Source of the DNA: Phycisphaera mikurensis NBRC 102666
Lineage (GTDB): Bacteria; Planctomycetota; Phycisphaerae; Phycisphaerales; SM1A02
Length of the DNA: 33,025 nt
Assembly (NCBI GenBank): GCA_945890745.1
Contig: CAMDCW010000008.1
Span: 1 to 33,025 of the forward strand
Reading direction: 5' to 3'
Shown in pieces: positions 14,395 to 16,102 of the stretch. Under the pieces are notes generated by a model that saw only the letters and a program-made list of their open reading frames with translations, had not been told where the DNA came from and ran no database searches. The position numbers and the translations under genes are program-made. The number at the start of each line of letters is the position of its first letter. Within the stretch, counting starts at the first letter, position 1.

Positions 14395-15051
14395 TCAGGC
14401 CTCAGTCTTCTCGGCGACTGGGTAGCAAGTCTCATCGATGAACGAGGCGAGTGAGGCCTTGTCAACAACGAGGAAGCGGTGGTTGAGGAGGTCGAACACA
14501 TTGAGCTGCTCGATGCGGCGAACATCAACGCCTTCGATGTTGCGCGCAGACGCCATGGCAGTTCGGTTGGCTGGGTTCACGGCGACGAGGCAGGTTCGGT
14601 TGATACCGACCTTCTTCATCATGCCGGCGAAGGTCTTGGTGTTCGGCTCGGCAAATGCCAGTGAGTCGAAGCACTTCACTTCGTTGTCAACAAGCTTCGC
14701 CAGGAGGGCGTTGCGGTTGGCAAGTCGGCGCATCTTCTTGGTGAGGTCAGTGCGGAAGTCCTCGCGGGTGCGGGTCTTCGCAAACGCAACGCCACCACCC
14801 TTGCGTCCGGGGACGCGCGAGGCGCCGACGCGGGAGCTTCCCGTGCCCTTCTGCTTGTAGAGCTTGCGGGTTGAGCCCTGCACGGAGCCGCGGCTCTTGG
14901 TGCGAGCTGAGCCCTGGCGCTGGTTACCGTGGGTGACGACGTAGGCCTGCTTGAGCAGGGCGTGGCGGATTTCGCCACCTAACAGGGTCTCGTCGATCTT
15001 GAGGACGTCGACCTGCTTGCCTTCGGAGTTGAGAATCGGAAGTTCGATCAT
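14395..15051 (-). CDS. rplD: Ribosomal protein uL4
   Basis: uL4 lines the exit tunnel. In E. coli it also represses its own S10 operon by binding the leader RNA. The 218-residue protein begins MIELPILNSEGKQVDVLKID, has the tunnel loop rich in basic and glycine residues (about 50-95, with GSSRVGASRVPGRKGGGVAF), and the C-terminal globular domain. Length is normal. The ATG lies only 2 nt after the stop of a strong upstream mini-ORF (15054-15080), so initiation here is probably linked to that leader. The gap to rplC is the longest inside the operon (195 nt). Confidence 0.97.
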   Translation of the reverse strand: MIELPILNSEGKQVDVLKIDETLLGGEIRHALLKQAYVVTHGNQRQGSARTKSRGSVQGSTRKLYKQKGTGSSRVGASRVPGRKGGGVAFAKTRTREDFRTDLTKKMRRLANRNALLAKLVDNEVKCFDSLAFAEPNTKTFAGMMKKVGINRTCLVAVNPANRTAMASARNIEGVDVRRIEQLNVFDLLNHRFLVVDKASLASFIDETCYPVAEKTEA

Positions 15052-15053
15052 TG

Positions 15054-15080
15054 TTACTTACCTTCGCGGGTTGTCCGCAT
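15054..15080 (-). CDS. Candidate leader peptide of rplD (8 codons)
   Basis: Just upstream of rplD there is an exceptionally strong Shine-Dalgarno stretch (GGGAGGAGGAGG, 15084-15095). Three nucleotides later comes ATG, then seven codons and TAA, giving the peptide MRTTREGK. Its stop codon lies 2 nt before the rplD ATG and in a different frame. This is the layout of termination-reinitiation coupling or a translated leader. Alternatively, the strong site may serve rplD from a distance of 32 nt, which is unusually far. Such an ORF is too short to judge from composition. Confidence 0.4.
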   Translation of the reverse strand: MRTTREGK

Positions 15081-15130
15081 TCGCCTCCTCCTCCCGACGC
15101 CTGTTATTCAGTGGCGGCGGGCAGGATTTG

Positions 15131-15171
15131 ACTCAGGTTCCTTGAGTTGCTGGCAGGTTTAGGCTGCCAGC
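15131..15171 (-). repeat. Paired hairpins in the rplC-rplD gap
   Basis: A perfect 8-bp inverted repeat (15149-15156/15164-15171, 7-nt loop) adjoins a 5-bp one (15131-15135/15143-15147). They lie midway in the 195-nt rplC-rplD gap, upstream of the leader ORF of rplD. On the minus strand no T-run follows, so a regulatory or processing role is more likely than full termination. A uL4 target site is one possibility, by inference from E. coli. Confidence 0.45.
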
Positions 15172-15246
15172 AGTTCGTTTATTTGTCGTGACCGCGTGGT
15201 TCCGCGCCTGAATGGCGACGGCCTTCGCAATCCCAAGTTAACGCCA

Positions 15247-15951
15247 TTAGGCGCTAGCCTGGATACGCACCTTTCGCTTGTAGAGTCGACCAGGGGTCTT
15301 GATGAAAAGAATCCCGTTGCTGGCGCCGGGGACGGCACCCTTCACGAGAAGAATGTTGTTTTCGACATCGATCTTCACGACATCGAGCGAGCGGATGGTG
15401 ACTTGTTCGTCACCCATGCGACCAGCCATGCGCTTGCCCTTTTTGATCTTTGCACCGTGTCCACGGTCAGTACCGTGCGAACCGATCGATCCAGGGGAGC
15501 GATGCTTACGCTCAACGCCGTGGGTAGCAATCTGGCCCTTGAAGCGGTAACGCTTCATGACGCCGGCGAAGCCCTTACCCTTTGAAGTTCCGATGATGTC
15601 AACGAACTTCAATGCAGCGAGCGTGTCGATCTTGACTTCTTGACCAACGGTGAAGGCCTCGGCCTCAGCGTCGCTGGCAAGACGAAGTTCGCGGTGCTGG
15701 CGCTTCGGGGTGCTGCCGGCCTTCGCATCGTGGCCGATCATGGCCTGCGTGCTCGTGCGAGCCTTCATGTCGTCGAAGGCGAGCTGGACGGCTGAGTAGC
15801 CATCGCTTGCAACGGTCTTCACCTGTGTGACAACGCAGGGTCCCGCCATGATGACGGTGACGGGGATGTTGGTTCCATCGGGCTTGAAGAATCGGGTCAT
15901 GCCGATTTTCTTGCCAAGGATGCCGGTCTTGCCAGGCGCTGTGTGCGTCAT
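15247..15951 (-). CDS. rplC: Ribosomal protein uL3
   Basis: uL3 helps start large-subunit assembly and reaches close to the peptidyl transferase centre. The protein shows GILGKKIGMTRFF near the start and the central signature block KGKGFAGVMKRYRFKG, followed by GSHGTDRGHGAKIKKGKRMAGRMG in family position. It has 234 residues, slightly longer than the usual 205-210. Two ATG codons lie 6 nt apart; AGGA stands 9 nt before the second (15951) but only 3 nt before the first (15957), so I use the second. It follows rpsJ after a 151-nt gap. Confidence 0.97.
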   Translation of the reverse strand: MTHTAPGKTGILGKKIGMTRFFKPDGTNIPVTVIMAGPCVVTQVKTVASDGYSAVQLAFDDMKARTSTQAMIGHDAKAGSTPKRQHRELRLASDAEAEAFTVGQEVKIDTLAALKFVDIIGTSKGKGFAGVMKRYRFKGQIATHGVERKHRSPGSIGSHGTDRGHGAKIKKGKRMAGRMGDEQVTIRSLDVVKIDVENNILLVKGAVPGASNGILFIKTPGRLYKRKVRIQASA

Positions 15952-16068
15952 GTGCATTGTTCCTGCGCTGCGGTTCCGTCAGGTTGGCGCCCACTGGCGC
16001 GTCTGCGGTTCCTGGTGATTTGCCGGAGGTCGGTTTGCTTGATGCAAGCGACGCGGCAGGTGAAGAAT

Positions 16069-16092
16069 GGGTTGCGCGTGGAGCGCGAACCC
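16069..16092 (-). repeat. Hairpin in the rpsJ-rplC gap
   Basis: A stem of 5 + 4 bp with one bulged base (16069-16073 and 16074-16077 against 16088-16092 and 16083-16086) and a 5-nt loop follows the rpsJ stop. A second small stem lies at 16037-16041/16045-16049. There is no T-run after it. It is one of several intercistronic hairpins in this operon. Confidence 0.4.
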
Positions 16093-16102
16093 GACGAGTG
16101 AC

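Follow-up and report, generated by a model that had tools for sequence, protein, structure and literature searches.

Known and proposed uL4 leaders and the rplC-rplD gap of Phycisphaerales

In Escherichia coli, uL4 regulates the S10 operon at a 5' leader located before rpsJ, acting on translation as well as by transcription attenuation (PMC10931766, PMC7186457). The regulatory site is reported not to be widely conserved even in the gammaproteobacteria (PMC10931766). A candidate r-leader has been described for the rplC, rplD, rplW, rplB operon of Archaeoglobi, for which uL4 was suggested as the ligand, a candidate that its authors rate as uncertain (Eckert and Weinberg 2020, PMC7247131). Targets in the middle of an operon are known for uS7, whose E. 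coli binding site in the str operon is the rpsL-rpsG gap, just ahead of the uS7 gene, and for uS8 in the spc operon; in both cases, retroregulation extends the control to genes further upstream (PMC10931766).

Here, we describe an RNA from Phycisphaerales that lies between rplC and rplD and most likely serves as a valve in the feedback control of ribosomal protein synthesis. To our knowledge, such feedback control is known from few phyla. The window, i.e. the whole stretch of 33,025 nt that was analysed, carries a ribosomal protein operon on its minus strand, the genes of which were identified by Pfam as uL3, uL4, uL23 and uL2, with uS10 upstream. Between the stop codon of rplC (uL3; 15247-15957, PF00297) and the ATG at 15051 of rplD (uL4; 14395-15051, PF00573 with 166 bits), the gene that would be regulated, lie 195 nt. 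The preliminary description had noted this spacer in an operon with short gaps. Its length does stand out: the median gap is 195 nt in 55 Phycisphaerales loci vs 35.5 nt in 40 genomes from the rest of the Phycisphaerae. The operon has another long gap, however, with 145 nt separating rpsJ and rplC.

The element resembles the E. coli S10 leader in that it belongs to the same operon, is an RNA structure expected to control ribosomal protein genes and probably has uL4 as its regulator. Unlike that leader, which precedes rpsJ and contains an attenuator hairpin, it is located between rplC and rplD, shows no terminator-like site on the coding strand and has no Rfam match; it is not an E. coli-type S10 leader. 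With the Archaeoglobi candidate it shares a proposed role as a uL4 leader of a rplC-rplD-rplW-rplB operon and its discovery by comparative genomics. That candidate is archaeal, however, whereas the Phycisphaerales leaders examined match no Rfam family: a search of the window against Rfam 15 at the gathering threshold returned no match, and with eight loci and E values up to 10 only chance-level matches were obtained. The likeness to the uS7 and uS8 targets consists in the intra-operon position; these differ in that they serve 30S proteins, are 16S-like, belong to other operons and have an unrelated structure. The gap RNA is thus a previously uncatalogued family of Phycisphaerales, and the literature searched, which was limited to one collection, contained no such leader for Planctomycetota, in line with the preliminary description, which knew of none.

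A conserved and covarying leader RNA

A structured RNA of about 190 nt (15232-15060; this and all following features are on the minus strand) fills the rplC-rplD gap, from the 5' strand of helix P1 to the rplD Shine-Dalgarno (SD) sequence. Two covariance models, R1, built on P1 and P2 with 16 family members (close relatives) as the seed, and R2, an order-wide model trained on Phycisphaerales loci, match the window at 15238-15049 with 131.4 and 110.3 bits, respectively (E 3.7e-38 and 3.0e-26). The 196-nt leader folds better than its dinucleotide shuffles (minimum free energy (MFE) z = -2.86; 0 of 200 shuffles as good), and the single-sequence MFE fold of the window reproduces P1, P2 with its bulged G, and a third helix, P3.

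In P1, the 5' strand GAUUGCG (15226-15232) pairs with CGCGGUC (15190-15196), and all seven pairs have changed on both sides among relatives. The helix contains an internal loop with two sets of near-invariant columns, AAGGCC (15220-15225) and GGAACC (15198-15203), whose CC/GG is paired in 100% of cases, and is capped by an apical stem, P1a, between 15219 and 15204. A segment conserved in the sequences of relatives, ACGACAA (15183-15189), follows 3' of P1. Further downstream lie ACC (15136-15138), with invariant CC/GG, which would form the 5' strand of a helix P0 with GGU (15062-15060) in the rplD SD, and the conserved GAGUC (15130-15134), of which GUC (15132-15130) pairs with GGC (15085-15083) to form the base of P2. 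One pair of this base is U.G in 84 of 84 sequences; the third is C-G, U-A, U-G or G-C. The 5' strand of P2 consists of UCCU, a bulged G (15122) and CCC (15119-15126), and covaries with GGGAGGA (15089-15095), again with all seven pairs changed on both sides. The segment GGA GGC GAA (15080-15088) comprises an internal loop, the P2 base and a junction GAA, and is conserved as rrGGCGAA across the order. The P3 hairpin, UGCGG-ACAAC-CCGCG (15065-15079), lies directly 5' of AAGGU (15060-15064), the rplD SD and putative 3' strand of P0. P3 ends 0-6 nt ahead of the GG of the SD in relatives, such that the structure adjoins the expression platform. Across the order, the pattern of the gap is strongly conserved. 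From 5' to 3', the marks found order-wide are AAGGCC...GGAACC in a stem, CGACAA, CC(U)GAGUC, CCUnCC...GGAGG, rrGGCGAA, a hairpin and AGGU, the rplD SD.

Because the alignment used for covariation (A3, 92 sequences) was fitted to the model, we compared it with controls in which the pairing partners were slid, and with a tree-aware null based on FastTree and parsimony-matched random substitutions. In P1 and P2, 93.5% of the cells were paired vs 37-50% with slid partners, and the covariation score was 0.473 vs 0.057-0.117. Six P1/P2 pairs scored above every value of the tree-aware null (P1 alone: four of seven pairs), and most of the top-scoring column pairs under this null were P1/P2 pairs; four of the others are duplicates, in which the construction had entered the same columns a second time. 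For P3, 45 distinct stems occupy the same place, with all Watson-Crick types represented. Since the P3 columns were picked for pairing, the sole independent test of this helix is the mean length of the longest stem, which was 5.6 bp vs 4.2 bp in shuffles. The gap RNA therefore has the conserved, covarying structure expected of an r-leader. In A3, a strongly covarying pair was also seen outside the modelled structure (columns 22-70), which may reflect a longer P1a or the alignment itself.

The data on P0 are suggestive of SD sequestration by ACC/GGU. Positions 3 and 4 were paired above shuffles (p 0.0015 each) but not above the tree-aware null (p 0.40 and 0.10), and we therefore retain the helix as a proposal. 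Variants of P0 comprise UCC/GGA and GCC/GGC in other genera and ACCGCC/GGCGGU in one locus (L196).

The eight-codon reading frame and the upstream hairpins

The preliminary description had proposed that a strong SD sequence drives an eight-codon leader ORF immediately before rplD, with two hairpins upstream. All of these elements are present in the window: the purine run GGGAGGAGGAGG at 15095-15084, the ATG at 15080-15078, the frame ATG CGG ACA ACC CGC GAA GGT AAG TAA encoding MRTTREGK (15054-15080), which ends at 15054 and thus 2 nt ahead of the rplD ATG, and the hairpins at 15171-15149 and 15147-15131, both of which form in the MFE fold of the window leader. Alignment of the gap across relatives had been set beforehand as the test of the leader ORF, and refuted it as a conserved function: start, stop and spacing all vary. 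Only 19 of 80 distinct homologous cores have a start codon (ATG, GTG or TTG) at most 9 nt away from the SD-like strand, and none of the other cores encodes MRTTREGK with the same stop. In those relatives that carry a start codon, the lengths, frames and stops of the ORF differ. Even within the genus, the frame continues into rplD in two loci (L007 and L009) and stops 8 nt within rplD in two others (L008 and L124), the last with GTG as its start. The frames of the genus read MRDSPQKAKND..., MRLTREGETHD..., MRRTREGQNHD* or VRDTREGQNDD*, and have their stop within rplD or none at all.

What had been taken for an SD sequence is the 3' strand of the covarying helix P2. The first half of GGGAGGAGGAGG is the GGGAGGA strand, and its remainder falls, together with the A of the ATG, in the segment 15080-15088. 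In relatives, the GGAGG strand gives way to GGAGGGUGAGGCG, GGGAGAACAAGGC and other sequences, and the strand with which it pairs changes accordingly. The ATG itself results from the junction GAA running into the base of P3 (UGCGG), and the tiny reading frame is a by-product of the RNA fold. A tempting misreading, in which a purine run followed by an ATG passes for a translation start, can thus be corrected: the run is a helix strand. We rejected the frame both as a regulatory upstream ORF and as a conserved leader peptide, as its start, stop and spacing are not kept among relatives. Control of rplD by translation of this ORF, through ribosome occupancy or coupling, would draw on features that are real in the window, i.e. 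the ORF, the SD-like stretch and the 2-nt spacing, but given their lack of conservation within the genus and the pairing of the SD-like stretch in P2, we regard it as highly improbable.

The hairpin at 15149-15171 is a linker insertion at the genus level, which lies outside the conserved core and is lacking in the family's other genera. The hairpin at 15131-15147 shares sequence with the conserved CCUGAGUC; in more distant relatives we did not see it, judging by eye rather than by counting. Both were rejected as functional elements on these grounds.

Distribution of the leader and its predicted function

For the comparison, we read the gap in about 55 genomes of the order, plus 80 additional named Phycisphaerales contigs. 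The core motif was present in the rplC-rplD gap in 54 of 55 Phycisphaerales loci and in none of 51 Phycisphaerae genomes outside the order. In a genome of family f6 (G053, locus L037), the gap is only 38 nt long and the leader has apparently been lost, which implies that it can be lost within the order. Of 151 Phycisphaerales genomes, 79 are matched by R2, with one strong site per genome, showing that the leader is single-copy; each of the 27 loci that were newly fetched falls between rplC and rplD. This model fails to detect some members of families f2, f5 and f6, although the core CC-GAGUC...GGC can still be made out there by eye; in f5 and f6, the 5' domain is reduced and some members are missed by the covariance models. 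R1 recovers left-out family members and also hits this gap in further genera and families (E 1e-10 to 1e-20). Across 294 genomes of the phylum, it produced matches in 14, and the five within the order are all located before rplD. The nine matches outside the order, none of which contains rplC or rplD, were counted as chance (L080-L089); the two best, which were inspected, sit in long reading frames of the opposite strand. The RNA thus occupies a consistent cis position upstream of ribosomal protein genes.

This distribution also bears on the idea of a riboswitch, or of an sRNA or attenuator, unconnected with ribosomal proteins. Metabolite-binding RNAs likewise have complex conserved junctions, but strong in-order matches were found only before rplD, no terminator-like site was found on the coding strand of the rplC-rplD gap, and there is no similarity to Rfam families; we give this explanation almost no weight.

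The preliminary description had suggested a control point directly before rplD, an arrangement unlike that of E. coli, and the comparative evidence bears this out as a conserved structured leader. Judging from its sequence, the gap RNA belongs with the r-leaders in structure and position, with putative protein binding. We consider it probable that it is a cis-acting r-leader through which uL4 represses the translation of rplD. Translational control is the simplest reading because the fold abuts the SD and the gap lacks a terminator-like site on the coding strand; uL4 is our preferred ligand because it is the product of the controlled gene and the known regulator of the operon in E. coli. In the fold, P1 with its AAGGCC/GGAACC internal loop lies upstream, followed by the junction of P2 and P3; P2 is formed by CCUnCC/GGAGG with a bulged purine and is closed by GUC/GGC with the invariant U.G, and the RNA ends 3' on the rplD SD. 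In the proposed mechanism, free uL4 that has yet to be incorporated with 23S rRNA would bind the leader and stabilise the junction. The SD would then be held in the short helix P0 or be otherwise blocked, resulting in repression of rplD, which may extend through coupling to the genes downstream.

Structure and SD position are also compatible with a fold that needs no ligand and simply sets the rate of rplD translation, couples it to rplC or provides a site of mRNA stability or processing, and some cis RNAs that regulate ribosomal proteins may bind none (Eckert and Weinberg, PMC7247131). However, the conserved unpaired AAGG/GGAACC, the bulged purine, the invariant U.G and the junction GAA are typical of a recognition site, and unpaired motifs of this kind are unnecessary for simple SD masking. 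We therefore hold ligand-free tuning to be improbable.

r-leaders of uL4 often, but not always, resemble the uL4 site in 23S rRNA. No such resemblance was found for the Phycisphaerales leader. Short motifs are common to the leader and 23S domain I (AAGGC..GAACC and ACCGA..GGCGA..GGUGAA), but they pair otherwise in 23S rRNA, and the covariance model found no consistent site in the 23S rRNA of 15 Phycisphaerales relatives or of E. coli; mimicry of domain I was therefore rejected. With no such mimicry singling out uL4, and with the gap lying inside one ribosomal protein operon, the ligand could be uL3, encoded just upstream, uL23 or uL2, encoded downstream, a pair of these or another protein. Naming the ligand is uncertain when several ribosomal protein genes are regulated (Eckert and Weinberg, PMC7247131). 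Against another ligand stand the end of the fold on the rplD SD and the established role of uL4 as regulator of this operon elsewhere, and we regard an r-leader bound by another protein as unlikely, if somewhat less so than one that binds nothing.

Returning to uL4 as the ligand, we lean towards the view that in Planctomycetota this protein controls the operon from within, through an undescribed RNA family that is unrelated in architecture to the E. coli S10 leader, has no evident rRNA mimicry and would represent an independent invention restricted to one order. Control of the uL4 operon could then sit mid-operon, and the leader would provide an example of how r-leaders arise anew with different architectures. 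With covarying leaders available from dozens of genera, it is a ready target for binding tests.

A few minor observations were made beside the leader. The rpsJ-rplC gap (window 15958-16102) contains a partly conserved C-rich motif, ACC(C/T)C(C/T)GG(C/T), found in 26 of 92 distinct upstream regions and often located 3' of a small hairpin; it may possibly mark a second leader, before rplC. In five relatives (L018, L022, L024, L028 and L029), terminator-like hairpins with a T run were seen by eye immediately 3' of rpsJ. These suggest that rpsJ can end a transcript in several relatives, with the remaining S10 operon starting at rplC.

In domain I of 23S rRNA, at the region of E. coli 460-475, each of the 15 Phycisphaerales sequences (L061-L075) reads GUAAGGCGACUGAA or a close variant, and E. 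coli reads GUACCGUGAGGGAAA. One of these 23S sequences (L065, from G043) has an insertion of about 300 nt in domain I at about E. coli position 543-550, one frame of which resembles, by eye, a GIY-YIG-type nuclease.
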